Positions 4,244 to 57,285 of a DNA stretch of 64,000 nucleotides are shown here, in pieces. Source of the stretch: Methyloversatilis discipulorum (lineage in GTDB: Bacteria > Pseudomonadota > Gammaproteobacteria > Burkholderiales > Rhodocyclaceae). The notes below the pieces were generated by a model. It was not told where the DNA came from and searched no databases. It worked only from the letters and a program-made list of their open reading frames with translations. Numbering within the stretch: the stretch's first letter is position 1; each line of letters begins with the position of its first letter. Position numbers and translations under genes: made by a program. Location: contig NZ_ARVV01000001.1 of the NCBI RefSeq assembly GCF_000385375.1, positions 2,108,001-2,172,000 on the forward strand, given 5' to 3'.

Positions 4244-4972
4244 TCAGCCATGACGGGTGCCGTCAGGCACGAACACGTAACCGAAGCCCCAGACAGTCTG
4301 CAGATAGCGCGGCTTGGCCGGGTCGTCCTCGACCAGCTTGCGCAGACGCGACATCTGCACGTCGATCGAGCGGTCGAAGGCGTCGTACTCGCGGCCGCGC
4401 GCCAGTTCCATCAGCTTGTCGCGCGACAGCGGCACGCGCGGCGATTCGAGCAGTACGCGCAGCAGCGAGAACTCGCCGGTGGTCAGCACCTGCTCCTGCC
4501 CGTTGCGGGTGAGCGTGCGCGCCGCCAGATTGACCTCGACCTGGCCGAAGCGCACCACGCGCTCGTCCAGGGTTGGCGCCCCCGGCGGCGGTTTCGGCGC
4601 CTGGCGGCGCAGTACCGCGTTGATGCGGGCAACCAGTTCCCGCGGGTTGAAAGGCTTCGGCAGGTAGTCGTCGGCGCCCATTTCGAGACCGACGATGCGG
4701 TCGACCTCGTCACCCTTGGCGGTCAGCATGACCACCGGAATCGTGTTGTCCTGAGCACGTAGTCGCCGGCAGATGGCCAGCCCGTCCTCGCCCGGCAGCA
4801 TCAGGTCGAGCACCATCAGGTCGTACAGTTCGCGAGCCAGCGCGCGATCCATCTGCGTGCTGTCGGCTACCGCCTTGACGGTGAAACCCTGTTCGCCGAG
4901 GTAACGTTCGAGCAGCGCGCGCAGGCGGGCATCGTCATCGACGACGAGTATCTTGCGTTTTTTTTCTTCCAT
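4244..4972 (-). CDS. OmpR-family response regulator
   Basis: A 242-residue two-component regulator. The N-terminal receiver domain has the acidic V-D-D-D cluster near residue 12, phosphoacceptor D56 in LMVLDLMLPGEDG and the conserved Lys in LPKPFNP. The C-terminal winged-helix domain ends in the DNA-recognition region S-I-D-V-Q-M-S-R-L-R-K-L-V-E and the W-G-F-G-Y-V-F wing. It is close to OmpR in both length and order of genes (regulator then kinase). Targets cannot be identified from the window. Upstream lie about 178 bp before the next plus-strand gene, which presumably hold its promoter. Confidence 0.92.
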   Translation of the reverse strand: MEEKKRKILVVDDDARLRALLERYLGEQGFTVKAVADSTQMDRALARELYDLMVLDLMLPGEDGLAICRRLRAQDNTIPVVMLTAKGDEVDRIVGLEMGADDYLPKPFNPRELVARINAVLRRQAPKPPPGAPTLDERVVRFGQVEVNLAARTLTRNGQEQVLTTGEFSLLRVLLESPRVPLSRDKLMELARGREYDAFDRSIDVQMSRLRKLVEDDPAKPRYLQTVWGFGYVFVPDGTRHG

Positions 4973-41966: not shown

Positions 41967-43568
41967 ATGTCGCTTGAAAAAGAAGTCGCCCGCCGGCGCA
42001 CCTTTGCCATCATTTCCCACCCGGACGCGGGCAAGACCACGCTGACCGAAAAGCTGCTGCTGTTCGCAGGCGCGATCCAGATCGCCGGCAGCGTGAAGGC
42101 GCGCAAGGCCGCCCGTCACGCCACCTCCGACTGGATGGAAATCGAGAAGCAGCGCGGCATTTCGGTCGCCAGCTCGGTGATGCAGATGGAGTACCGCGAC
42201 TGCGTCGTGAACCTGCTCGACACGCCGGGCCACAAGGACTTCTCGGAAGACACCTACCGCGTGCTGACCGCGGTCGATGCCGCGCTGATGGTGATCGACG
42301 CCGCCAACGGTGTCGAAGCGCAGACATTGCGCCTGCTCGAGGTCTGCCGCGCGCGCAACACGCCCATCATCACCTTCATCAACAAGATGGACCGCGAGGT
42401 GCGCGCGCCGCTCGACCTGATCGACGAACTCGAGCGCACGCTGGGCATGGACGTCGCGCCCTTCACCTGGCCGCTGGGCATGGGCAAGGATTTCGCCGGC
42501 GTGTATGAAATGCGCGAAGACCGCATGCGCGTGTTCCGCGCTGGCGAGGACCGCATTTCCGGCGACGAGGAAGTGCTGCTCGGTCTCGACAACCCCGAGA
42601 TCGTCGGTCGCTACCCGATGCAGTTCGACACCGCGCACGCCGAGATCGACCTCGTGCGCGAAGCCGCACCGCCCTTCGACGAAGCCGAATTCCTGGCCGG
42701 CCGGCAGACACCGGTGTTCTTCGGTTCGGCGATCAACAACTTCGGCGTCAAGGAAGTGCTGGACGCCTTGGTCGACCTCGCGCCACCGCCGGGCGGCCGT
42801 CCGGCCATCCAGCGCCGGGTCGAGCCGACCGAAGAGAAGTTCACCGGCGTCGTGTTCAAGATCCAGGCGAATATGGACCCGTCGCACCGCGACCGCGTCG
42901 CCTTCCTGCGCGTCTGCTCCGGCCACTTCGAGCGCGGCATGCGCATGAAGGTGAGCCGCAACGGCAAGGACATCCGGCCGAACAACGTGGTCACCTTCCT
43001 GTCGCAGCGGCGCGAACTGCTGGAAGAGGCCTACGCCGGCGACATCATCGGCATCCCGAACCACGGCACGCTGCAGCTCGGCGACACGCTGACCGAGGGC
43101 GAAACGCTGCAATTCACCGGCCTGCCCTTCTTCGCACCGGAATTGTTCCAAGGCGTTGAAGTCAAGGATCCATTGAAAACCAAGCAGTTGCGTGCAGGTC
43201 TTGAGCAACTGGGTGAAGAAGGTGCCATCCAGGTTTTCCGCCCGCTGGCGGGCGGTACGCTGCTGCTGGGCGCGGTCGGTCAGCTGCAGTTCGAGGTGGT
43301 GATCCACCGCCTGAAGACCGAGTACGGCTGCGACGCCCGCCTCGAAGGCACGCGCTACACGATGGCACGCTGGGTCACCTGCGACGACGAGCGTGAACTG
43401 AAGCGCTTCATCGACGCCAACGCCCACCGCATCGCCTATGACGCGGTGAACGCACCGGCCTTCCTCGCCACCATGCGCGCCGAGCTCAAGGTGGCCGAAG
43501 AGAAGTGGGAAAAGATCAAGTTCCACGCCATGCGCGAACATGCGGGTCTGATGTTCGCCAGCCACTGA
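41967..43568 (+). CDS. prfC: Peptide chain release factor 3
   Basis: A 533-residue translational GTPase that recycles RF1/RF2 from the ribosome. G1 motif H-P-D-A-G-K-T-T-L (residues 18-26), G3 D-T-P-G-H-K-D-F and G4 N-K-M-D-R-E are present, and the C-terminal release-factor domains reach normal length. The gene ends next to the REP-like array that carries the mobile elements. Confidence 0.96.
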   Translation: MSLEKEVARRRTFAIISHPDAGKTTLTEKLLLFAGAIQIAGSVKARKAARHATSDWMEIEKQRGISVASSVMQMEYRDCVVNLLDTPGHKDFSEDTYRVLTAVDAALMVIDAANGVEAQTLRLLEVCRARNTPIITFINKMDREVRAPLDLIDELERTLGMDVAPFTWPLGMGKDFAGVYEMREDRMRVFRAGEDRISGDEEVLLGLDNPEIVGRYPMQFDTAHAEIDLVREAAPPFDEAEFLAGRQTPVFFGSAINNFGVKEVLDALVDLAPPPGGRPAIQRRVEPTEEKFTGVVFKIQANMDPSHRDRVAFLRVCSGHFERGMRMKVSRNGKDIRPNNVVTFLSQRRELLEEAYAGDIIGIPNHGTLQLGDTLTEGETLQFTGLPFFAPELFQGVEVKDPLKTKQLRAGLEQLGEEGAIQVFRPLAGGTLLLGAVGQLQFEVVIHRLKTEYGCDARLEGTRYTMARWVTCDDERELKRFIDANAHRIAYDAVNAPAFLATMRAELKVAEEKWEKIKFHAMREHAGLMFASH

Positions 43569-43581
43569 AGCGCGTTTTGCA

Positions 43582-43786
43582 GGCGCGGCCTTGGCCGCGA
43601 CGGGGCTGATGCGGTCCGCAGGCTTGAATACCGGCCGCTGTCGGGGTCAGAGGACCCCTCCTACAAAATCCCGGCTCCGACCACGGATTGGGCACGATCC
43701 CTGTGGGAGCGGCCTTGGCCGCGACAGGGCCGATGCGGGCCGCCGGCTTCGATCCACGCTGCTGTCGGGGTCAGAAGACCCCTCCT
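43582..43786. repeat. REP-like tandem repeat units B and C (left of IS110)
   Basis: Two units of about 117 bp. Each has the palindromic core GCGGCCTTGGCCGCGA (43586 and 43711), a middle C-x-G-G-C-T-T-x-x-A-T section, and the element GTCGGGGTC-A-GACCCCTCC-T. Between them lies ACAAAATCCCGGCTCC and GACCACGGATTGGGC. The same spacer appears right of the IS110 element, so the original locus was a three-unit array (B, C, D) and the IS110 element sits inside unit C's downstream end. Unit B retains an unoccupied copy of the IS110 target (43656-43670). No gene is seen in 43569-43973. Confidence 0.85.
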
Positions 43787-43800
43787 TGTATTGTCTTTGT

Positions 43801-43973
43801 CTTCCGAGGGGCACCTCGGGACGAGCAGGTGGATGCCGCATCCCTCCTTGGGCTTATCGCCCGTTCTGTAGATTTTGCAGCACCTGCTCACCCTCACGTT
43901 CCGATCGAACAGTATCTTTGGCCCGGCTTGGCCGGCAGCCCGCATTCACAAGGTTGATCTCACGAGGTTTTGC
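43801..43973 (+). ncRNA. Predicted IS110 bridge RNA
   Basis: The left end of the element forms a 5' hairpin CCGAGG-GGCA-CCTCGG (43804-43819), then a loop closed by a 9-bp stem GAGCAGGTG / CACCTGCTC (43823-43831 with 43881-43889). Inside the loop, CCCTCCT (43842-43848) equals the target left of the CT core, and GATTTTGCAG (43871-43880) complements the target core and right side with 9/10 pairs. A second loop begins near 43903 and holds AACAGTATCT (43908-43917), identical to the element right end (57135-57144). ACAAG (43948-43952) complements the left end. This matches the target- and donor-binding loops of IS110 bridge RNAs. Expression and exact ends are inferred. Confidence 0.8.
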
Positions 43974-44068
43974 ATGGAGTTGTTTCATCTGGGTATCGAC
44001 GTAGCCAAGGCCAAGCTCGACTGTGCGCTGCGCTCACCCGAGGGCAAGATTCGCCACAAGGTCATCAC
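43974..44068 (+). pseudogene. IS110 transposase, 5' fragment
   Basis: Codons 1-31 of the transposase, M-E-L-F-H-L-G-I-D-V-A-K-A-K-L-D, with D9 the first residue of the RuvC-like DEDD tetrad. The frame runs into the transposon inverted repeat and stops at 44105. Joining base 44068 to 56254 restores K-V-I-T-N-D-A-A-G-F-D in frame. Confidence 0.9.
44064..44068. repeat. 5-bp target-site duplication ATCAC, left copy
   Basis: ATCAC directly left of the transposon inverted repeat; the identical ATCAC is at 56249-56253 directly right of the other end. Five bp is the standard Tn3-family duplication. Confidence 0.95.
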
Positions 44069-44106
44069 GGGGGCAGCTCACGAAACGGAACAAATCGTAC
44101 GCTAAG
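44069..44106 (+). repeat. Transposon left terminal inverted repeat
   Basis: 38 bp beginning GGGGGCAGCTCACG and ending ATCGTACGCTAAG. It differs from the right end at three positions (5, 23, 37). The merR stop codon lies inside it. Confidence 0.93.
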
Positions 44107-44557
44107 GCATAGCTCGCCCAAGCCGGTCCCCTGCCGACGTGGCGAGGCTCGTTTCGCCTTGCAACGACGCAATCAGCGGACACGAAACATTTCCCTGGCG
44201 TGCATGGCAGGCGCACACGAGTTGGGACAGCACGACCTCCATGCGCGCCAGGTCGGCCAGCTTGGCGCGCACGTCCTGGAGCTTGTGCTCGGCCAGGCGG
44301 CTGGCTTCGTCGCAGTGGGTGCCATCCTCCAGCCGCAGCAGCTCGGCGATCTCATCCAGGCTGAAGCCCAAGCGCTGGGCCGATTTCACGAACTTCACCC
44401 GGGCTACATCCGCCTTGCCGTAGCGGCGGATGCTGCCATAGGGCCGCGCCGGTTCGGGCAGCAAGCCCTTGTGCTGATAGAACCGGATCGTCTCCACATT
44501 GACCCCGGCCGCCTTACCGAAGGCGCCGATGGTCAGGTTCTTCAGACCGTTCTCCAT
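44102..44557 (-). CDS. merR: Mercuric resistance regulator MerR
   Basis: A 151-residue MerR. The N-terminal winged helix contains [20 protein letters not shown], and Hg(II) is bound by C82, C117 and C126 (H-C-D-E-A-S and [10 protein letters not shown]), exactly the Tn501 positions. It represses and, with Hg(II), activates the divergent merTPFADE promoter. The C-terminus is a few residues longer than Tn501 MerR because the frame reads on into the transposon end repeat. Confidence 0.96.
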
Positions 44558-44562
44558 CCCGC

Positions 44563-44593
44563 TTGACTCCGTAGTTGACTACGGCAGTAACGT
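44563..44593 (+). promoter_or_regulatory. PmerT promoter and MerR operator
   Basis: -35 TTGACT (44563-44568) and -10 TAACGT (44588-44593) are 19 bp apart, the over-long spacer of MerR-controlled promoters. The spacer holds the dyad CCGTAG-TTGA-CTACGG. Confidence 0.9.
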
Positions 44594-44629
44594 TACAACA
44601 TCAAGCGAAGACCCAGAAGGAGAAGCTTT

Positions 44630-44980
44630 ATGTCAGAACCCAAGACCGGTCGTGGCGCGCTGGCCACCGGAGGTGTCGCGGCCATCCTCGCCTCGACCTG
44701 CTGCCTCGGCCCCCTCGTGTTGGTCGCGCTTGGCTTTTCCGGCGCCTGGATCGGCAACCTGACGGTGCTGGAGCCATACCGCCCGATCTTCATCGGCACG
44801 GCGCTGGTGGCGCTGTTCTTTGCTTACCGGCGCATCTTCCACCCGGTGCAAGCCTGCAAGCCGGGGGAGGTCTGCGCAGTTCCACAGGTGCGCGGCAGCT
44901 ACAAGCTCATTTTCTGGATCGTGGCCGCGCTGGTTCTGGTCGCGCTCGCCTTTCCCTTCGTCGTGCCATTTTTCTACTGA
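44630..44980 (+). CDS. merT: Mercuric transport protein MerT
   Basis: A 116-residue inner-membrane protein with three helices that carries Hg(II) into the cell. The transport cysteine pair C24-C25 is in the first helix (S-T-C-C-L-G-P), and C76 and C82 are in the cytoplasmic loop. An AGGAG site precedes the ATG. First gene of the operon. Confidence 0.96.
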   Translation: MSEPKTGRGALATGGVAAILASTCCLGPLVLVALGFSGAWIGNLTVLEPYRPIFIGTALVALFFAYRRIFHPVQACKPGEVCAVPQVRGSYKLIFWIVAALVLVALAFPFVVPFFY

Positions 44981-44993
44981 TCAGGAGTTCGCC

Positions 44994-45269
44994 ATGAAAA
45001 AGCTGTTTGCCTCCCTCGTCCTCGTCGCCGTTGCTGCCCCGGTGTGGGCCGCCACGCAGACTGTCACGCTGTCGGTGCCCGGCATGACTTGCGCCGCCTG
45101 CCCGATCACGGTCAAGAAGGCGCTCTCCAAGGTCGAAGGCGTGAGCAAGACTGCGGTGAGCTTCGAGAAGCTCGAGGCCGTCGTCACCTTCGACGATGCC
45201 AAGACCAGCGTGCAGGCCCTGACCAAGGCCACCGCCGATGCCGGCTATCCGTCCGAGCTCAAGAGGTGA
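44994..45269 (+). CDS. merP: Periplasmic mercury-binding protein MerP
   Basis: A 91-residue periplasmic protein: signal peptide of about 19 residues (A-A-P-V-W-A), then one heavy-metal-associated domain with G-M-T-C-A-A-C (C33, C36). It hands Hg(II) to MerT. CAGGAG lies before the ATG, 13 bp after merT. Confidence 0.96.
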   Translation: MKKLFASLVLVAVAAPVWAATQTVTLSVPGMTCAACPITVKKALSKVEGVSKTAVSFEKLEAVVTFDDAKTSVQALTKATADAGYPSELKR

Positions 45270-45287
45270 TCCCTGGATAACCGGACC

Positions 45288-47217
<1,930 letters not shown>

Positions 47218-47234
47218 GGAACAGGAGGTGGTCG

Positions 47235-47591
47235 ATGAACGCCTACACGGTATCGCGTCTGGCCCATGAGGCCGGTGTGAGCGTACATGTCGTGCGCGAT
47301 TACAAGGTGCGTGGGCTGCTGCGGCCGGTGGCGCGCACCGCCGGCGGCTACGGGGTGTTCGACGCGGCCGCCTTGCAGCGGCTGTGCTTCGTGCGAGCCG
47401 CCCTGGAGGCCGGCATCGGCCTCGACCTGCTGACGCGGCTGTGCCGGGCGCTGGACACCGCAGACGGCGATGAAGCGTCGGCGCATCTTGCCGACCTGTG
47501 CCACCTCGTCGAGCGCCGACGCCAAGCGCTGACGAACCTGGAAACGCAGTTGACCGAATTGGCGCACAGCACGTCGGAGATCTCGGCATGA
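47235..47591 (+). CDS. merD: Mercury resistance co-regulator MerD
   Basis: A 118-residue MerR-family protein that displaces MerR and turns the operon down. The winged helix [21 protein letters not shown] is intact, but the Hg-binding cysteine set of MerR is absent, as expected. I start at ATG 47235 with AGGAGGT upstream; an upstream in-frame extension to 47214 is unlikely. Confidence 0.94.
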
Positions 47592-47824
47592 ACAGCCCGG
47601 AGCGCGTTTCCCCCGAGGCGCGCAAGCCGGTCGCCGGCTACCTGTGGGGCCTGCTCGCCGCGCTGACCTGTCCCTGCCACCTGCCGGTGCTCGCCATCGT
47701 TCTTGCCGGCACCACCGCCGGTGCGTTCCTCGGCAAGTATTGGGGCATTGCGGCGTTCGGCCTGACCGGCTTGTTCGTCCTGTCCCTGGCGCGGGCGATG
47801 CGGGCGTTCAAGGGAAGATCATGA
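47588..47824 (+). CDS. merE: Mercury transport protein MerE
   Basis: A 78-residue membrane protein with two helices and the C-P-C metal motif (A-L-T-C-P-C-H-L-P) in the first. Overlaps merD by four bases (ATGA). MerE contributes to mercury uptake. Confidence 0.93.
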
Positions 47825-48150
47825 GCGCTACCGAGCCGGATGGCTGGACGGCGGCGCAACTGGCCCAGGCGGCCGAGCATCGGCAGCTTGAGCTGCACTA
47901 CCAGCCCATCGTCGATCTGCGCCGCGGCCGAATTGCCAGCGCGGAAGCGCTGCTGCGCTGGCGGCACCCGAGCCTTGGCCTGCTGCCGCCGGGCGCGTTC
48001 CTGCCACTGGCCGAATCGTCCGGGCTGATGCCCAAAATCGGCGCGTGGGTGCTGGGTGAAGCCTGCCGTCAGATGCAGCGCTGGCTGGCGTTGAATTGGC
48101 GGCCGTTTCGATTGGCCGTTAATGGGGTCGCCTCAGAAAACGGAAAATAA
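47821..48150 (+). CDS. Truncated Urf2 (EAL-domain protein fragment)
   Basis: A 109-residue N-terminal piece of the mer-linked Urf2/EAL protein: L-E-L-H-Y-Q-P-I-V-D-L-R-R-G-R-I-A-S-A-E-A-L-L-R-W-R-H-P. It breaks off in the middle of the EAL fold (R-L-A-V-N-G-V-A-S-E) where the internal inverted repeat begins, and the last codons are read from that repeat. It cannot have phosphodiesterase activity. Its start overlaps merE (ATGA). Confidence 0.85.
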   Translation: MSATEPDGWTAAQLAQAAEHRQLELHYQPIVDLRRGRIASAEALLRWRHPSLGLLPPGAFLPLAESSGLMPKIGAWVLGEACRQMQRWLALNWRPFRLAVNGVASENGK

Positions 48151-48161
48151 AGCACGCTAAG
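48124..48161 (+). repeat. Internal Tn21-type 38-bp inverted repeat
   Basis: Reads GGGGTCGCCTCAGAAAACGG and continues AAAATAAAGCACGCTAAG, the Tn21/Tn501-type terminal repeat, in left-end orientation. It truncates urf2, marking where a second transposon end joined the mer module. It differs clearly from the outer repeats in the middle section. Confidence 0.88.
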
Positions 48162-48168
48162 CCCTTAC

Positions 48169-48609
48169 TTACCCAGATGTTTGACTTTTCGTGGCACTTT
48201 CACCATGGCAATTGCAATTGCCCAACCCTTGCAAAATGCCGCACGCCTCTACAGATCGAGAGCCAGAACACTTCTCGCGCAAATCAACCAAGTGCCGCTT
48301 TAACTGCAACAGCGCGGACACACGCATTTCCACCTGTTGAATATGGGCCTCCAGCAGCGTGTTGACCTCCCCACAGTCCTGCATCGGGTTGTCTCGCAGA
48401 CCCAGCAATGCGCGAATCTCGCTCAACGTCATGTCGAGCGAACGGCAATGACGGATGAATTGCAAGCGCTCAATGTGCGCCTCACCGTACAGCCGGAAGT
48501 TGCCACCGCTTCGCGCTGGCTTCGGCAGTAGCCCTTCCTTCTCGTAGTAGCGGATGGTCACAACCTCGCATCCAGAGCGCTTGGCGAGGTCGCCAATTCT
48601 GATTTCCAT
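48169..48609 (-). CDS. pbrR: PbrR/CadR-type MerR-family regulator
   Basis: A 146-residue regulator for Pb/Cd/Zn. The HTH reads R-I-G-D-L-A-K-R-S-G-C-E-V-V-T-I-R-Y-Y-E; metal-binding positions C79 (D-C-G-E-V-N), C114 and C123 are those of PbrR/CadR, and the C-terminus has C-N-C-H. It is divergent from the P-type ATPase across a MerR-type promoter nearly identical to known pbrA promoters. The pbrBC partner makes PbrR the better name; CadR is the alternative. Confidence 0.9.
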   Translation of the reverse strand: MEIRIGDLAKRSGCEVVTIRYYEKEGLLPKPARSGGNFRLYGEAHIERLQFIRHCRSLDMTLSEIRALLGLRDNPMQDCGEVNTLLEAHIQQVEMRVSALLQLKRHLVDLREKCSGSRSVEACGILQGLGNCNCHGESATKSQTSG

Positions 48610-48631
48610 GCATCAATCTCCTTTATTTCAC

Positions 48632-48662
48632 TTGACTCTATAGTAACTATAGGGTTTGTAAT
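48632..48662 (+). promoter_or_regulatory. MerR-type promoter of the lead/cadmium module
   Basis: -35 TTGACT (48632-48637), 19-bp spacer with the dyad CTATAG-TAA-CTATAG, -10 TGTAAT (48657-48662). The long spacer and dyad are the PbrR/CadR operator arrangement. Confidence 0.9.
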
Positions 48663-48692
48663 GGAAGTTGTATAGATTTGAAGGAGTTATTT

Positions 48693-51098
48693 ATGAGCGA
48701 ATGCGCTTCCACGGCGTGTGGCTGCTCGGCTGGGCCGATCATCCAACCCACGACACAAGCCCCAGCGACAACCGGATCGGCTCAAGCGGTGTATCGCATC
48801 GAGAACATGGACTGCCCCACGGAAGAGGCGCTGATCCGAGGCAAGCTGGTCGGGCTGGCGGGGGTGGTTGGTCTTGAGTTCAACCTGATGCAGCGTACTT
48901 TGGCCGTTCGGCACGAACTGCCTTCGTTGTTTCCCGTTGAGCAGGCGCTAACCGCCATCGGCATGCAAGCCGTGCGCATGGATCAGGCATCGACCGGGCA
49001 AACGACCAAGCTGTCCATTACCAAAATGGATTGCCCGACCGAAGAGACGTTGATCCGCAACAAGCTCGGTACCATGGCCGGAGTTGCCGATCTCGATTTC
49101 AACCTGATGCAGCGCACGCTGTCGGTACGCCATGCGGACCAGGTTCTGCCGGACGTGCTCGCGGCACTGCAAGCGCTTGGATTCGAGGCGCAGGTGTTGG
49201 ACACCGCAGAGGCCGCATCGCCATCCGCATCCCTTGTGACCACGCCGACCAACTGGTGGCCGCTGGGCATCTCCTTTGTAACTGCATCGGCGGCCGAGGC
49301 GGTCTACTGGCTCCACAACGGCAATCATTGGTCGGTCGTCGTTCTGGCGCTCGTCGCGGTCTTCACCGGCGGTCTGTCCACCTACAAGAAAGGTTGGATT
49401 GCGCTCAAGAACCGTAATCTCAACATGAACGCCCTGATGTCGATTGCCGTCACGGGTGCCATGTTGATCGGGCACTGGCCCGAGGCGGCAATGGTGATGG
49501 TGCTTTTCGCGCTGGCCGAGGTGATCGAAGCCAAGTCGCTGGATCGCGCCCGCAATGCCATCCGTGGCCTGCTCGACCTGACCCCGGAACAGGCCACGGT
49601 GCAGCAGGCTGACGGCACATGGCGCGAGGTGGGTGCAAAGCAAATTGCCATCGGTAGCCGCGTCCGGGTCAAGCCAGGTGAGCGCATCGCCCTGGATGGT
49701 GAGGTGCTGGAAGGCCGCTCTGCCGTCAACCAAGCCCCGATCACGGGTGAAAGCCTTCCGGTCGAGAAATCCCCCGGTGATCCGGTGTTTGCGGGCACGA
49801 TCAACGAATCCGGTTCATTCGAGTACCGCGTCACCGCCGTGGCCAGCAACTCCACATTGGCCCGCATCATTCACGCGGTAGAGGCTGCCCAAGGAAGCCG
49901 TGCGCCGACTCAGCGCTTTGTCGATCAGTTCGCCCGCTGGTACACGCCCATTGTTTTCGGTGTTGCCATCGCCGTCGCGTTGTTGCCACCGCTGTTCATG
50001 GGTGCGGCATGGCTCGACTGGATTTACCGTGCATTGGTTCTGCTGGTGGTCGCCTGCCCGTGCGCACTGGTGATCTCTACGCCGGTCAGCATCGTCAGCG
50101 GCCTGGCCGCTGCCGCCCGCCACGGCATTCTCATCAAGGGCGGCGTCTATCTGGAAGAAGGCCGCAAGCTGCGCTGGCTGGCTCTGGACAAGACCGGCAC
50201 GATCACGCACGGCAAGCCCGCACAGACCGATTTTGTCACTTGGGGCAATGCACTCGCCGCAAACAGCCGCAGCATCGCTGCCAGTCTGGCGGCTCGTTCC
50301 GACCACCCTGTATCCAAAGCGGTGGCACAAGCCGCGCAGACGGATGGGGTTGCCTTACTCGACGTAGCCGAGTTCAGCGCGCTGCCCGGTCGGGGCGTGC
50401 AAGGCCAAATCAACGGTGAGACCTACCATCTTGGCAACCAGCGGATGCTCGAAGCGCTGGGGCAATGCACACCAGAACTGGAACAGCGCATCGCGGCGCT
50501 GGAAACCATGGGTAAAACTGTCGTGATGTTGGTCAGCGCAAAAGGGGTTCATGCCTTATTTGCCGTAGCGGACACCATCAAGGAAAGCAGCAGGAGCGCC
50601 ATTGCCGAGCTTCATGCACTGGGCATCAACACCATGATGCTGACCGGCGACAACCCCCACACGGCACAGGCCATTGCCGCACAAGCCGGGATCGACAGTG
50701 CGCAAGGCAATCTGCTCCCAGACGACAAACTGCGCGAAGTTGAGCTACTGGCCATAAAGGGCAAGGTCGGCATGGTCGGTGATGGCATCAACGATGCCCC
50801 GGCCTTGGCGCGTGCGGACATCGGCTTTGCCATGGGAGCGGCTGGCACCGATACCGCCATCGAGACCGCTGACGTGGCCCTGATGGACGACAACCTGGGC
50901 AAGATTCCGACCTTCGTGCGCCTGTCGCGTGCGACGGCGCAGGTGCTGATGCAAAACATTGTGCTGGCCCTTGGCATCAAGGCAGTATTTCTGGTGCTGA
51001 CCTTCACGGGTCAAGCGACCATGTGGATGGCGGTGTTTGCTGATATGGGGGCCAGCTTGCTCGTCGTTGGCAATGGCTTGAGGCTGTTGCGCAAATGA
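48693..51098 (+). CDS. pbrA: Pb/Cd/Zn-exporting P1B-type ATPase
   Basis: An 801-residue exporter. A Cys-rich start (S-E-C-A-S-T-A-C-G-C) is followed by two metal-binding domains, both with M-D-C-P-T-E (C41 and C114), then about eight membrane helices. The ion-site C455-P-C457 motif and phosphorylation D499 (D-K-T-G-T) are intact. I start at ATG 48693, which has a GAAGGAG site; a TTG at 48678 is unlikely. The second M-D-C-P-T-E-E domain is typical of the PbrA/CadA group of Gram-negative bacteria. Overlaps pbrBC by four bases. Confidence 0.93.
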   Translation: MSECASTACGCSAGPIIQPTTQAPATTGSAQAVYRIENMDCPTEEALIRGKLVGLAGVVGLEFNLMQRTLAVRHELPSLFPVEQALTAIGMQAVRMDQASTGQTTKLSITKMDCPTEETLIRNKLGTMAGVADLDFNLMQRTLSVRHADQVLPDVLAALQALGFEAQVLDTAEAASPSASLVTTPTNWWPLGISFVTASAAEAVYWLHNGNHWSVVVLALVAVFTGGLSTYKKGWIALKNRNLNMNALMSIAVTGAMLIGHWPEAAMVMVLFALAEVIEAKSLDRARNAIRGLLDLTPEQATVQQADGTWREVGAKQIAIGSRVRVKPGERIALDGEVLEGRSAVNQAPITGESLPVEKSPGDPVFAGTINESGSFEYRVTAVASNSTLARIIHAVEAAQGSRAPTQRFVDQFARWYTPIVFGVAIAVALLPPLFMGAAWLDWIYRALVLLVVACPCALVISTPVSIVSGLAAAARHGILIKGGVYLEEGRKLRWLALDKTGTITHGKPAQTDFVTWGNALAANSRSIAASLAARSDHPVSKAVAQAAQTDGVALLDVAEFSALPGRGVQGQINGETYHLGNQRMLEALGQCTPELEQRIAALETMGKTVVMLVSAKGVHALFAVADTIKESSRSAIAELHALGINTMMLTGDNPHTAQAIAAQAGIDSAQGNLLPDDKLREVELLAIKGKVGMVGDGINDAPALARADIGFAMGAAGTDTAIETADVALMDDNLGKIPTFVRLSRATAQVLMQNIVLALGIKAVFLVLTFTGQATMWMAVFADMGASLLVVGNGLRLLRK

Positions 51099-52174
51099 GC
51101 TGGAAATTCTTTCTCTACGACTGGGGTGGTCTAAACATCGCGTTGTTCCAAGCCATCAACATGAGCACACCTGCAGCGCTGGAACCGCCGGTATCGTTCT
51201 TCAACCTTGTGATAGGCAACTACTGGACTGCACCACTGATGCTCTTGGCGATGTGGGGATGGTCAAAGTCGGCACCTGACCCAACGCGGGCCGATGCCAT
51301 CCGGTACAGACTCAGAGTCTTTAGCGTGGCCTTTGCGTTGGCATTTCTCGTCGCCACCATCTTGAAGCTATGGATCGACTTTCCACGCCCGCCTGCCGTT
51401 TTTGGCGACATGGTGCGCGTTATCGGGGGCATCGAACGACACTACAGCCTGCCCAGCGGGCATGCCACCTATGCCGCGCTGGTGGTCGGCGCGCTCTGGC
51501 CTTTGATAGGCCGTCGTGGCCGCATCGGCTTGGTGTTGTACGCCGCATTGGTCGGTTGGTCACGCATCGCAGCCGGAATGCACTTTCCTGCCGATGTGCT
51601 GGCGGGGTGGGTACTTGGATTGAGCTGCACGGCGCTCGCCGGGTGGCTGATGCCGCTGGCCGCCCCTGTGTGGCAATCGGCTCGCCGCACATCGACTTGG
51701 GTCTGGTTCGCAGTGGCCGCCAGTTCTGTCATGACAGATCAGCTCGCAAAGTTCGCCATCACCCGCACGTTTGCCTACGGTGAACAGGTCGAAGTCAGCA
51801 CCTTCTTCAACATTGTCCATGTCCTGAATCCCGGCGCGGCATTCAGCTTTCTGGCGAACGCTGGCGGCTGGCAACGTTACTTTCTCATGGCGCTGGGTCT
51901 GGTCGTTTCTGCTTGGCTGGGCCGCATGCTGTGCCAGCAGCGGCCACGCCTTGAAGCGGTGGGCTACAGCCTGATCCTTGGTGGTGCGCTCGGCAATGTC
52001 GTGGATCGTGTGCTGCGTGGATCGGTTGTCGATTTCCTCGACTTCCATTGGCAGCTTGTGCACTGGCCCGCCTTCAACCTCGCTGATGTGGCGATAACTA
52101 TCGGAGCGCTCTGCCTGTTCTTGACGGTTGTACCGAAAAGCAGTAGAGGCACAGAGGCCGATGTGTCCGGTTAA
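51095..52174 (+). CDS. pbrBC: PbrB-PbrC fusion: undecaprenyl-PP phosphatase plus prolipoprotein signal peptidase
   Basis: A 359-residue membrane protein joining two enzymes. Residues about 1-195 are a PAP2-type phosphatase (K-L-W-I-D-F-P-R-P; L-P-S-G-H-A-T; S-R-I-A-A-G-M-H-F-P-A-D). Residues about 200-359 are an LspA-like signal peptidase II with D-Q-L-A-K, N-P-G-A-A-F-S-F, G-N-V-V-D-R and F-N-L-A-D-V-A (the catalytic Asp pair). In lead resistance the phosphatase supplies phosphate to precipitate exported Pb(II), and PbrC supports PbrB. The ATGA overlap couples it to the ATPase. Confidence 0.9.
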   Translation: MSWKFFLYDWGGLNIALFQAINMSTPAALEPPVSFFNLVIGNYWTAPLMLLAMWGWSKSAPDPTRADAIRYRLRVFSVAFALAFLVATILKLWIDFPRPPAVFGDMVRVIGGIERHYSLPSGHATYAALVVGALWPLIGRRGRIGLVLYAALVGWSRIAAGMHFPADVLAGWVLGLSCTALAGWLMPLAAPVWQSARRTSTWVWFAVAASSVMTDQLAKFAITRTFAYGEQVEVSTFFNIVHVLNPGAAFSFLANAGGWQRYFLMALGLVVSAWLGRMLCQQRPRLEAVGYSLILGGALGNVVDRVLRGSVVDFLDFHWQLVHWPAFNLADVAITIGALCLFLTVVPKSSRGTEADVSG

Positions 52175-52304
52175 GCTATACCCTAACATGGCGTCAGACC
52201 ATCCGGCGCGAAAGCGTCAGAATAGAGTCGCCTTCAGAATTGATTGACACGCACCGTCAAGAGTCATAGATTTCTTCCTGACACATTCCCCTCAGGAGGA
52301 CCCT
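52175..52304. promoter_or_regulatory. Resolution site (res) upstream of tnpR
   Basis: 130-bp gap between pbrBC and tnpR holding several GTCAG / CTGAC-type motifs (near 52194, 52219, 52279), in the position of Tn21/Tn501 res, where TnpR resolves cointegrates. No gene is present. Confidence 0.65.
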
Positions 52305-52865
52305 TTGCACGGTCAGCGCATCGGCTACGTCCGCGTCAGCAGCTTCGACCAGAATCCGGAACGCCAGCTTGAGCATGTGCCGGTGGACAGGCTGTTCACC
52401 GACAAGGCATCGGGCAAGGACACCCAGCGCCCCGAGCTAGAACGGTTGCTCGCCTTCGTGCGCGAGGGCGACACGGTGGTGGTGCACAGCATGGACCGCC
52501 TGGCGCGCAACCTCGACGACCTGCGCCGTCTAGTGCAGAAGCTCACCCAGCGCGGCGTGCGCATCGAATTCGTCAAGGAAAGCCTGACCTTCACCGGCGA
52601 GGACTCGCCGATGGCGAACCTGATGCTGTCGGTGATGGGCGCGTTCGCCGAGTTCGAGCGCGCCCTTATCCGCGAGCGGCAGCGCGAAGGCATCGCGCTC
52701 GCCAAGCAGCGCGGGGCCTACCGGGGCCGCAAGAAGGCGCTGTCGCCGGAGCGGGTGGCCGAGCTGCGCCGGCGGGCCGCCGCCGGCGAGCAGAAAGCCA
52801 AGCTCGCCCGCGAATTCGGCATCAGCCGCGAAACCCTGTACCAATACCTGAGAACGGATGACTGA
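52305..52865 (+). CDS. tnpR: Tn21-type resolvase TnpR
   Basis: A 186-residue serine recombinase: [17 protein letters not shown] with the nucleophile S12, and a C-terminal helix-turn-helix ending [13 protein letters not shown]. It resolves transposition cointegrates at res. The start is TTG 52305 with CAGGAGGA just upstream. Only two bases separate it from tnpA. Confidence 0.95.
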
Positions 52866-52867
52866 CC

Positions 52868-55855
52868 ATGCCGCGCCGCAGCTTGCTGACGCCCGCCGAG
52901 CGCACCGGCCTGCTTGCCTTTCCGACCACTGACGACGACCTCATCCGGCATTACACCTTCTCCGAACCCGACCTGTCAGTGATCCGCCAACGGCGCGGCA
53001 ACCACAACCGGCTCGGTTTCGCGGTGCAGTTGTGCTACCTGCGCTATCCCGGCTTCGCCCTGCCGACCGACGCGGAACCGCCCGCATCCCTGCTGAATAT
53101 CGTCGGCCGCCAGTTGCGCATCGCGCCGGACATCTGGCCGCAGTACGCGCAGCGGCCGGAAACCCGGCGCGAGCACCTGCTGGAATTGCAGGCGTGGCTG
53201 AAGCTGACGCCGTTCGCGGCCGCCGACTACCGGCGCTTCGTCCACCAGCTCGCCGAGCTGGCCCAGCAGACCGACCGGGGTATCGTGCTGGCCGAGGCGC
53301 TGGTCGAGCTGCTGCGGCAGCAACGTATCATCCTGCCGGCCATCGATGTCATCGAGCGTGTATGTAGCGAGGCGCTCACGCGCGGTACGCGCCAGGTGTA
53401 CGCGGCGCTGACCGCGCCGCTGGCCGATCACCATCGCCGTGCGCTCGACGGTCTGCTGGCGATCCGCGAGGGCACCAAGGGCAGCGGGCTAATCTGGCTG
53501 CGCCAGCCGCCCGGCCCGCCCAAGCCCAAGCATGTGCTGGCCCACCTGGAGCGGCTGAAGACCCTCCGTGACCTGGCGTTGCCGGATGGGCTGGAGCACA
53601 CCGTCCACCAAAACCGCCTGCTGAAGCTCGCCCGCGAAGGAGGACAGATGACGGCCCAGCACCTGCGCGACCTGGAGCCGAGCCGCCGCTATGCGACCCT
53701 GTCCGCGGTGATCCTCGATACCCGCGCCACCCTGATCGACGAGATCATCGACCTGCACGACCGTTTCATGGGCGCGCTGTTCAGCAAGGCCAAGCGCAAC
53801 CACGCCGACCGCTTCCAGCAGTCCGGCAAGGCGATCAACGACAAGGTGCGGCTCTACTCGCGCATCGGCCGCGCCCTGCTGGAAGCCAAGCAGTCGGGCG
53901 GCGATCCGTTCGCCGCCATCGAGGCCATCATCCCGTGGGAGGTGTTCACCGAGAGCATCACCGAGGCCGAGCTGCTGGCCCAGCCGGAAGGTTTCGACTT
54001 CCTCGCGCTGGTCGGCGACGGCTTCAACCAGCTCCGGCGCTACACGCCGGCCCTGCTGGAAGCGCTGACCATGAAGGCCGCGCCGGCGGCACGCGAGCTG
54101 CTCGCCGCCGTCGATGTGCTCAAAGGGATGAACGAGCGCCAGGCGCGCAAAGTGCCGGACGATGCGCCCACGTCGTTCGTGCGCAAGCGCTGGGAAAGCC
54201 TGGTGCGCAACGAAGACGGGTTGGATCGGCGCTTCTACGAGCTGTGCGTGCTGTCCGAGCTGAAAAACTCGCTGCGCTCCGGCGACATCTGGGTGCAGGG
54301 CTCGCGCCAGTTCAAGGACTTCGAGGACTACCTGTTGCCGCCACCGCGTTTCGCCGCGCAGCGCGATCAGCGGGAATTGGGCCTGGCCGTCGAAACCGAC
54401 TGCGAGCGCTTCCTGGAGGCGCGCCTCACGGTGCTGCAAGAGCAACTGGCGACGGTGGAGCGGCTGGCCGCCGCCAACGAGCTGCCCGACGCCGCCATCA
54501 CCAGTACCGGCCGGCTCAGGATTTCGCCGCTGGACAACGGCGTGCCCGACGAGGCCGAGGCGCTGATGCAACAGGCGTACAGCCCGCTGCCGCACCTGAA
54601 GATCACCGAGCTGCTGCTGGAAGTCGATGGCTGGACGGGGTTCAGCCGCCACTTCAAGCACCTCAAGAGCGACGCGGCGGCCGAAGATCAACACCTGCTG
54701 CTGACGACCATCCTGGCCGACGCCATCAACCTGGGGCTCTCCAAGATGGCCGAATCCTGCCCGGGCGTGACCTATGCCAAGCTGACCTGGTTGCAGGCGT
54801 GGCACATCCGCGACGAGACCTATTCGGCCGGGCTGGCCGAGCTGGTCAACGCGCAGTTCCGTCAGCCGTTCGCCGCCTATTGGGGCGATGGCACCACGTC
54901 GTCGTCGGACGGCCAGAACTTCAAGGCCGGCGGTCGGGGCCACGCCGCCGGCCAGGTGAACCTGAAGTACGGCCAGGAACCGGGCGTGCAGTTCTACACC
55001 CACATTTCGGACCAGTACGCGCCGTTCCACACCAAGGTCATCAACGCCACGGTGCGCGACGCCACCCACGTCCTGGACGGACTGCTGTACCACGAATCCG
55101 ACCTGCGCATCGAGGAGCATTACACCGACACGGCCGGCTTCACCGATCACCTGTTCGCGCTGATGCACCTGCTGGGCTTCCGCTTTGCGCCGCGCATCCG
55201 CGACCTGACCGACAAGCGCCTGTACATCCACGGCGACGCCAAGCAGTACCCGACGCTCGCCGGCCTGATCGGCGGCAGCGTCAACGTGAAGCACATTCGC
55301 GCCCATTGGGACGAAATCCTGCGCCTGGCCGCCTCGATCAAGCAGGGCACGGTGACGGCCTCGCTGATGCTCAGGAAGCTCGGCAGCTACCCGCGACAGA
55401 ACGGCTTGGCCGTGGCCTTGCGCGAGCTTGGGCGAATCGAGCGCACGCTGTTCGCGCTCGACTGGATGCAGAACGTCGAGCTGCGCCGCCGCGTGCAGAT
55501 CGGTTTGAACAAGGGGGAGGCCAAGAACGCGCTGGCCCGCGCCGTGTTCCTGAACCGGCTCGGCGAAATCCGCGACCGCAGTTTCGAGAACCAGCGCTAC
55601 CGCGCCAGCGGCCTCAACCTGGTGGTGGCGGCGATCGTCCTGTGGAACACCGTCTACCTGGAGCGGGCCATCCAGGGGCTGCGGGACTCGGGCAAGGACA
55701 TCGACGAGAGACTGCTGCCACATCTCTCGCCGCTGGGCTGGGAGCACATCAACCTGACCGGCGACTACATCTGGCGGCAGAACAAACACGTCGAGCAGGG
55801 CAAGTTCCGGCCGCTGCGATTGATCGAGCAGGCACCGCTAGCAACGTCTTCGTAA
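52868..55855 (+). CDS. tnpA: Tn3-family transposase TnpA
   Basis: A 995-residue DDE transposase of the Tn21/Tn501 branch, full length. The catalytic core is visible: D681 (S-S-S-D-G-Q-N-F), D754 (H-Y-T-D-T-A-G-F) and the [13 protein letters not shown] helix, which contains the third acidic residue (E900 or E907). An RxxRR-like N-terminal DNA-binding region is present. It should recognise the 38-bp end repeats. Unusually, it does not directly abut the right repeat: ynfA intervenes. Confidence 0.95.
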
Positions 55856-55867
55856 GGTCTATCAACT

Positions 55868-56215
55868 GTGGAGCTACTGATCTTGATTCTGAAAACGACC
55901 GGACTGTTCATCGCAACAGCGCTTGCCGAGATCGTCGGCTGCTTTCTGCCTTACCTGTGGCTGCGCAAAGGGGGGCCAATGTGGCTGCTGATTCCGGCAG
56001 CGATGAGCTTGGCGCTCTTCGTTTGGCTGCTCACGTTACACCCAGCCGCCAGTGGCCGCGTTTACGCCGCCTATGGCGGCGTTTATGTGGCTACCGCGCT
56101 GGTTTGGCTTCGGGTCGTGGATGGCGTGAAGCTGTCCGCGCTGGATTGGACGGGGGCTGGAGTCGCGCTACTGGGCATGTCAATCATTGTGCTGGGCTGG
56201 CACGACAAGGCATAG
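55868..56215 (+). CDS. ynfA: YnfA/UPF0060 family small membrane protein
   Basis: A 115-residue protein with four predicted helices: [32 protein letters not shown] and a final [16 protein letters not shown] are YnfA hallmarks. Family members resemble small multidrug exporters. It starts with GTG 12 bp after tnpA, and its last codons lie in the right inverted repeat. It is cargo at an uncommon place, between tnpA and the transposon end. Confidence 0.85.
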
Positions 56216-56248
56216 CGTACGATTTTTTCCGTTTCGTGAGCTGACCCC
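56211..56248 (-). repeat. Transposon right terminal inverted repeat
   Basis: 38 bp whose complement begins GGGGTCAGCTCACG and ends ATCGTACGCTATG; 35/38 match with the left end. Followed by the duplicated ATCAC. Confidence 0.93.
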
Positions 56249-57127
56249 ATCACCAACGACGCAGCCGGCTTCGACCAACTGCAGGCTTTCCTGTCCCGGC
56301 AACACGCTTTGACACTGCACGTATGCATGGAAGCCACAGGCGTCTATTGGGAGCCTGTGGCTGAGTTCCTCGCCGCTCTGCCCCACGTCACCGTCAGTGT
56401 CATCAACCCGGCGCAGATCAAGGCCTTTGCCGCCTCGCGCATGGTGCGCACCAAGACCGACAAGGTCGATGCCGCACTCATCGCGCTGTTCTGCCATGAA
56501 CGCTCACCCGAGCCCTGGCAGCCGCCGTCCGAGGCCGAACGCACTTTGCGCGCGCTCGTGCTGCGTCTGGACAGCGTGCAAAGCATGCGCACCCAGGAAT
56601 CGAATCGTCTGCTCGTTGCGCAAAGCGCGGTACAGCAGGGGATTACTCAGCACATCGAATGGCTGGACGCCGAGATCGAGCGGCTCGCCCGCGCGATCCG
56701 GGATCTGCTCGACCAGGATGACGATCTGGACGGCAAGCGTCGTCTGCTCGATAGCATCCCCGGCCTGGGCGAACGCACCATCGCCATTCTGCTGGCCTTC
56801 TACGCACGGGTTTCTCGCTTCGACAACGCTCGTCAGGCCACTGCATTCGCTGGCCTTGACCCTCGGCAGCACCAATCCGGCAGCAGCGTCTGCGCCAAAC
56901 CACGCATGTCCAAGGTCGGCCACTCTTTCCTGCGCAAGTCACTCTACATGCCGGCCATGGTCGCGCTCTATCGCACCGCCTGGGGGAAACTCTTCCGACA
57001 GCGTCTGTCCGCTGCTGGCAAGCCGCCGAAACTCATCATCGGCGCAATGATGCGCAAGCTCATCCACGTCGCCTTTGGCGTTCTCCGATCCGGCAAACCT
57101 TTCGACCCAACCGCTCACGGGGTTTGA
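56249..57127 (+). pseudogene. IS110 transposase, 3' fragment (with right copy of ATCAC)
   Basis: Codons 32-322 of the transposase. It supplies E58 (C-M-E-A-T-G), D101 and D104 (K-T-D-K-V-D-A), completing the DEDD tetrad, and the C-terminal Tnp_20 domain with G-L-G-E-R-T and the probable nucleophile S240 (R-Q-H-Q-S-G-S-S). No stop or frameshift is present apart from the transposon, so the insertion is the only visible damage. The first five bases are the duplicated target. Confidence 0.92.
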
Positions 57128-57144
57128 CTCGGATAACAGTATCT
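57124..57144 (+). promoter_or_regulatory. IS110 right end with -35 half of a circle-junction promoter
   Basis: TTGACT at 57124-57129 lies 15 bases before the right edge. In an excised circle it would be 17 bases from TATTGT (43789-43794) of the left end, forming a promoter pointing into the bridge-RNA gene. Confidence 0.75.
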
Positions 57145-57285
57145 ACAAAATCCCGGCTCCGACCACGGATTGGGCGCGATCCCTGTGGGAGCGGCCTTGG
57201 CCGCGACAGGGCCTGTGCACGCCGCAAGCTTCGATACCGGCCGCTGTCGGGGTCAAGACCCCTCCCACAGAACCCCCAGCTCCAA
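57145..57285. repeat. REP-like spacer and repeat unit D (right of IS110)
   Basis: Begins with the displaced spacer ACAAAATCCCGGCTCC and GACCACGGATTGGGC, then a unit with GAGCGGCCTTGGCCGCGACA and GTCGGGGTC-A-AGACCCCTCCCACAG. The spacer differs from the one between units B and C at a single position. No gene lies between the IS110 gene and mrpG. Confidence 0.85.

Follow-up and report, generated by a model that had tools for sequence, protein, structure and literature searches.

Organization of the locus

The window, i.e. the whole stretch of 64,000 nucleotides that we analysed, carries at 43787-57144 what is almost certainly (probability about 0.96) a single insertion sequence of the IS110 group, of the IS621 type, with a bridge RNA encoded in its left end. 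Homology, structure, covariation of guides and targets in relatives, boundaries and nesting are established for this interval. All features of this element and of its target described below lie on the + strand.

The left non-coding end (43787-43973, 187 bases, first letters TGTATTGTC) begins after a CT at 43785-43786 and is directly followed by an ATG at 43974. The recombinase frame that opens there stops at 44068 and resumes at 56249. Its 5′ piece (43974-44068) contains the first Asp of the DEDD motif, and the 3′ piece (56249-57127) contains the Glu, the other two Asp residues, the catalytic Ser and matches to PF01548 and PF02371, as in the IS110 family. The right non-coding end (57128-57144, 17 bases) terminates in AACAGTATCT, the left donor plus core, and finishes at the CT at 57143-57144. 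These boundaries, CTTGTA on the left and ACAGTATCT on the right, are those of the closer relatives. The long left end, as opposed to the short right one, and the presence of the bridge-RNA model match in the former place the element in the IS110 group and not in IS1111.

As the gene is split, its protein is not intact, and the DEDD and Ser residues were aligned via the closest intact relative, P0001, which represents 146 member sequences and has 99% identity across the part that matches. P0001 shares 51% identity with the recombinase of E. coli IS621 (our locus L108), with the D, E, D, D and S columns common to both. Two of these IS621 residues, D102 and S241, are given by number in the available part of PMC11208158.

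The interrupting DNA (44069-56248), which was absent from the initial annotation of the element, is a Tn3-family transposon of the mer/pbr type flanked by a 5-bp duplication, ATCAC, at 44064-44068 and 56249-56253. It inserted into the recombinase gene after the arrival of the IS110 element. It has mer genes (a MerR-type regulator, 44102-44557; MerT, 44630-44980; an ORF with HMA and reductase parts, 45430-47217) and a pbr/cad-like set (a second MerR-type regulator, 48169-48609; a P-type ATPase, 48678-51098; a PAP2-signal-peptidase-II fusion, 51095-52174), and also encodes a resolvase and a Tn3-type TnpA. By eye from the ORF list, the region ∼47720-48150 inside the transposon resembles an EAL-type domain. 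The part at ∼48100-55800 matched plasmid records at 84-88% (20 rows among the matches listed), and none of the best-scoring 5000 plasmid records covered 80% of the transposon query.

In the 4.25-Mb single-contig genome we observed only one match to the left end of the element and only one match to PF02371, the split recombinase itself; the PF02371 search found no second IS110-type recombinase in this genome. Since the gene is interrupted by 12.2 kb and no other such recombinase was found, this copy is probably stranded and no longer moves by itself.

The target is a high-copy palindromic repeat

The element inserted at the CT core in an arm of a REP-like palindrome that is present in many copies; the ORF upstream of this repeat reads by eye like prfC. 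A free copy of the target, ACCCCTCCTAC, is present as an exact match at 43654-43664 in the neighbouring repeat unit, ∼120 bases upstream, and the repeat around it continues into ACAAAATCCCGGCTCCGACC, as it does to the right of the element. The initial annotation had called the target REP-like, which is borne out by the 79 copies of the repeat arm GGGGTCARRNGACCCCTCC in the genome, the occupied one included (reversed-pattern control, 0). These copies often form small arrays in which neighbouring units are spaced at some 124-202 bases. Free ACCCCTCCTAC sites number only five in the genome, one of them in the unit adjoining the insertion. The target is thus an abundant palindrome, intergenic as seen at the locus in the window.

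Predicted bridge RNA in the left end

We derived a consensus fold from 30 left ends (the window and 29 relatives); it has 31 pairs, 21 of them with changes on both sides. The covariance model trained on these left ends, R1, was run with a threshold of E ≤ 0.01 on 88 of 108 collected loci; the other 20 were second copies on a contig already represented, loci that lack upstream sequence, partial matches and two viral ones. The 88 sources gave 87 matches at this threshold. The model scored the window, which belongs to the training set, at 159 bits (43796-43954). Covariance-model folding with homologous left ends had been proposed as a check on the initial annotation, and E. coli IS621, which was outside the training set, was recovered at 88.6 bits (E 5.3e-22).

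The bridge RNA is predicted to span 43801-43962, its start being taken from the IS621 numbering and its end approximate. It begins with a 5′ stem-loop (43802-43821, helix 1), all seven pairs of which are changed on both sides in relatives (86.7% of cells paired). A target-binding loop follows. The annotated hairpin and 9-bp stem of the 187-base left end hold: the two arms of the stem, 43823-43831 and 43881-43889, form 9/9 pairs, all nine are changed on both sides, and 99.2% of the cells are paired over 70 distinct sequences. Within this loop lie a hairpin (GGGC/GCCC, 43850-43862, helix 5) and an inner stem, GCA 43877-43879 with TGC 43834-43836, which is 97% paired and has two of its three pairs changed on both sides. 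The donor-binding loop is closed by GATC (43903-43906, partner 43956-43959; by eye) and contains a hairpin at 43920-43940 (helices 6 and 7); in enteric copies the closing stem has different bases on both sides and keeps its pairing (AAACC/GGTTT; by eye). A 5′ stem-loop, a target-binding loop and a donor-binding loop with conserved stems are the features of the IS621 type.

Over the 70 distinct rows, 93.7% of structure cells were paired, the shuffled value being 69.0% (sd 0.5), and covariation was 0.663 (shuffled, 0.207); none of 500 shuffles reached the observed pairing or covariation. Pairing fell to 44.5% or less once the partners were displaced by 1 to 3 columns. The pairing counts lean towards the structure, because the alignment was fitted to it. 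The folding energy of the left end gave a z of −1.17, with 29 of 200 shuffles as good. Hence, the folding energy alone is uninformative, and covariation is what decides.

A search of Rfam with 43400-44300 gave nothing above chance (best of four hits at E 1.7 and 17.9 bits, the cut-off being 91), and plasmid records contained no DNA resembling the left end at E 1e-5. In viral_contigs three loci were found at 24-38% identity; one of these viral loci, L105, gave no match in the R1 search.

Two loci had more than one match to the model. L080 has two (1099-1261 and 1846-2008), 747 bases apart, upstream of one recombinase gene, and both share one left guide. In L073 (Methylotenera) a second match (4497-4657), with a score equal to that of the first, lies downstream of the recombinase gene; the two are perhaps tandem copies.

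The left target guide covaries with its target

The left target guide, ATCCCTCCT at 43840-43848, stands at the position of IS621 A50-U58 and would pair with the bottom strand of the left target ACCCCTCCT (43778-43786, core CT 43785-43786), the boundary of which was set from the element's own end, CTTGTA. Eight of nine bases pair, the core included, as in the IS621 type; the ninth, at position 2, is a U.G wobble. The identity of CCCTCCT 43842-43848 with 43780-43786 had been pointed out in the initial annotation; it is exact and covaries in relatives, the fuller extent of the guide being ATCCCTCCT.

We tabulated 86 of the 87 model matches (L077 lacks flanks). Guide and left target were available for 74, giving 54 unique pairs; L073 and L080 were each entered twice with a single set of flanks. 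The boundary rule was CTTGTA; CCTGTA also occurs inside the element in L024, L027 and L082. The comparison of guides with targets is not circular, because boundaries were set solely from the element's own ends.

Left guides matched their own left targets at a mean of 6.19 of 7 non-core bases, as against 3.25 (sd 0.17) when permuted, and the highest mean among 20000 permutations was 4.06. Taking one pair per guide (n = 41), the values were 6.20 and 3.19; the 34 unique pairs from the closer relatives gave 6.44 and 3.66. The permutation tests ignore kinship; L072 and L073, and the double matches of L073 and L080, are non-independent. The numbers of unique pairs with 0 to 7 non-core matches were 0, 0, 1, 2, 2, 3, 19 and 27. 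A poor fit, 6/9 or less, was seen at seven loci (L011, L013, L035, L051, L070, L072 and L073). Both the pairing of the closing stem and the covariation of left guide and target exceed chance.

The right target guide

Going by its sequence and position, GTAG (43868-43871) is the right target guide; it lies at the position of IS621 G77-G80 and would pair with the top strand CTAC (57143-57146) of the right target CTACAAA (57143-57149, core CT 57143-57144). As in the IS621 type, guide and target covary at this position in relatives. In 77 unique rows the positions +1 and +2 of this register were matched in 97% (78% in shuffles), +3 in 61% (40%), +4 in 38% (24%) and +5 in 43% (24%). When only CTAC targets were used (63 pairs, window omitted) the extension was weaker than in the full set: shuffles reached the observed value in 13 of 3000 cases at +3, 345 at +4 and 36 at +5, and +6 to +8 were at chance. 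In the window +3 is matched, +4 mismatched and +5 matched, and the guide perhaps extends 5′ to about 43865. The portion of PMC11208160 available describes right guides longer than that of IS621 in some relatives, in agreement with +3 to +5.

The clearest cases are the fourteen rows with a right target other than CTAC; in 11 of them (10 loci) the bases at the GTAG position fit the altered target. Among these 11, L072 and L073 are from one host and L073 is present twice. Target and guide switch together to CTTAA/TTAAG (L072, L073), CTGACCC/GGGTCAG (L070, L076, L078, L079, L096), CTAACC/GGTTAG (L067), CTGTCTT/AAGACAG (L035) and CTGCG/CGCAG (L097). Right guides that do not fit are those of L031 (target CTAT with GTAG), L034 (CTTG with ACAG) and L037.

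The Dokdonella copies L036 and L037 have identical guides and the right targets CTAC and CTGC, which amounts to a naturally occurring right-side mismatch.

The donor guides

The left donor guide ACAGTATC (43909-43916) is at the position of IS621 A123-C130. As had been noted from the sequence, the 10 bases AACAGTATCT at 43908-43917 are an exact copy of the right end (57135-57144), the guide itself being the eight inner ones. The annotated complementarity of ACAAG (43948-43952) to CTTGT (43785-43789) is likewise exact; the right donor guide (43944-43952) has in addition AU at 43944-43945, and after two skipped bases runs into ACAAG, pairing with CTTGTAT (43785-43791). The pattern is interrupted as in IS621 (A157-U158/C162-G165), and both donor guides are thus of the IS621 type. 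The partner of this second loop would be the element's own ends, as they are joined in the circle. A putative −10 hexamer, TATTGT (43789-43794), and a putative −35, TTGACT (57124-57129), both read by eye, would come to stand 17 bases apart at the circle junction. The mechanism, a promoter formed when the circle joins the right end to the left end, is described in the accessible part of PMC11208160. By analogy with IS621, the bridge RNA would be transcribed from the circular form, and recombinase and bridge RNA would form an RNP and then carry out strand exchange.

Comparison with IS621 and related elements

The guide numbering of IS621, taken from the part of PMC11208158 at hand, was counted on L108. 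There A50-U58 reads ATCGGGCCT, G77-G80 GTAG, A123-C130 ACAGTATC and C162-G165 CAAG; at the matching places the window has ATCCCTCCT (43840-43848), GTAG (43868-43871), ACAGTATC (43909-43916) and CAAG (43949-43952). The 5′ stem-loop, both loops, the CT core, GTAG and the donor sequence ACAGTATC are therefore common to the two, which differ in the left guide (ATCGGGCCT versus ATCCCTCCT), in the length of the right end (107 bases in L108 versus 17) and in the splitting of the recombinase gene in the window. Judged by each of the defining features that its sequence can show, the element belongs to the IS621 group and would work as IS621 does. The target-loop and donor-loop logic proposed for it in the initial annotation, all of whose quoted strings were found where it had placed them, agrees with homology, with the covariation of structure and of guides with targets, and with the guide positions.

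From what could be seen of PMC11187229, the seekRNA of ISEc21 and IS1111 elements is also an RNA from a non-coding region with short stretches matching both target strands. According to the same portion, it lies upstream in the IS110 type, as in the window, whereas in IS1111 members it is usually found downstream, and the guides stand in reversed order. ISPpu9, ISPpu10 and ISPa11, as presented in the part of PMC1525189 available, share with our element the insertion into a high-copy intergenic palindrome; the repeat in the window differs, and the host is probably a betaproteobacterium of the Rhodocyclaceae or Zoogloeaceae kind. Since targeting of REP sequences (PMC1525189, and for IS110 elements also PMC11208160) and bridge RNAs across the IS110 family (PMC11208160) are in print in the portions seen, the kind of element is already known; apart from the exchange of guide bases, it looks as published for IS621. 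One genome suffices here for reading all four guides of a bridge RNA.

Alternative explanations

The initial annotation had assigned the right target guide to GATTTTGCAG (43871-43880), ten bases pairing with the core and right target at 57143-57152. The complementarity is there (9/10), in the single element of the window, and in relatives one of the ten positions (+4; 0.40 versus 0.25) exceeds all 2000 shuffles, an excess that we take to reflect the relatedness of the sequences. However, the mean match to right targets is 2.7/10 in this register (window included) as against 6.0/10 in the GTAG register, and the next best match after the window is 7 (L015). The published IS621 right guide, GUAG, sits nine bases upstream, and bases 43877-43879 are taken up by the conserved inner stem. 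The initial annotation had also named unchanged guides at unrelated targets as evidence that would speak against it: the left guide mostly holds in this respect (46 of the 54 unique pairs agree at six or all seven non-core bases), but the identical 10-mer occurs in Xenorhabdus L034 and L035 beside the unrelated CTTGAATACG and CTGTCTTTAT, which refutes the proposed right guide. We consider this assignment very unlikely and have rejected it; the stretch is linker and inner stem, the role of right guide passes to GTAG, and in our judgement the 9/10 match is due to chance. Reading a single element can thus misplace a guide. Even less credible is that the left end is a mere structured leader regulating the transposase, with guides resembling targets only through the mutual similarity of REP-like repeats. 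Many targets are indeed repeats with C-rich cores in common, and for this reason the shuffled match is already 3.2/7; own targets nevertheless match at 6.2/7, and closer relatives alone behave likewise. Moreover, copies within the same genome have different guides that match their targets (L090, GTCCGCCCT at ATCCGCCCT; L099, GCCCACCCT at TCCCACCCT; L012, GCGCACCCT at GCGCACCCT, though the neighbouring L011 fits poorly), guide and target change together between sister species, and the homology to IS621 also argues for guides.

A different question is whether the whole 13.4-kb unit is still mobile through a recombinase supplied in trans by an intact relative, the nested transposon being cargo of the bridge-RNA system. 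Both ends and the guides are intact, intact close relatives such as P0001 exist, the sister species has at least nine insertions, and the available part of PMC11187229 states that cargo lying between IS ends can be moved together with the RNA. Against this stand the single copy in the genome, where the sole recombinase of the family is the split one, and the fact that within the genus the arrangement turned up nowhere else. We regard such mobility as unlikely, and favour the reading of an IS621-type element that is probably stranded.

Guide changes in a sister species

A search of the genus with the recombinase protein (E ≤ 1e-60) found it in its own genome only, 1 of 13. It missed the sister species G002 because the copies there are cut at contig ends; DNA searches found a near-identical element there, represented by nine left and nine right ends, all at contig edges. 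G002 is 95% identical to the window over 469 bases upstream of the insertion.

The left flanks in G002 terminate in GCCGCTCCT in six cases and in ACCGCTCCT in three, and the right flanks read CTACAGG in all nine. Only one of the nine left ends, L158, reaches the guide, which reads GTCGCTCCT and differs from that of the window at position 1 (A to G) and position 4 (C to G). Target position 4 is G in 9/9 left flanks and C in the window; position 1 differs from the window in 6/9, and is unchanged at L158, where a wobble results. The extended right guide of the window, CTGTAG, fits the CTACAG flanks of G002 one base better than its own target; the left guide may, as a conjecture, have moved to the new arm first.

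Free sites CCGCTCCTAC and CCCCTCCTAC stand at 36:11 in G002 and 33:5 in the genome of the window, in counts from a listing whose reversed-pattern control outnumbered the pattern in both genomes. As the free sites are already at 36:11 and only L158 shows a guide, the G002 set alone is weak proof of guide choice. We therefore suggest only tentatively, as a possibility that we would not bet on, that within the genus point changes in the left guide (ATCCCTCCT here, GTCGCTCCT in L158) re-aimed the element from one arm of the REP-like repeat to the other with the U.G at position 2 kept, and that the stranded copy here bears the mer/pbr-type transposon as potential cargo. If the re-aiming were true, natural retargeting could be traced base by base. 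The comparison is a small natural experiment in the exchange of guide bases across two repeat arms.

One right end in G002 (L146/L179), inversely oriented, sits immediately 3′ of the prfC-like ORF. Within the repeat array that follows this ORF there are IS110-type insertions in at least 3 of 13 genus genomes: the genome of the window, G002, and G012, where the insertion is a different element, judged by eye from CTTGTATG and the reading frame. The array (L146, L148 and window 43569-43786) looks as if it were an insertion hot spot.
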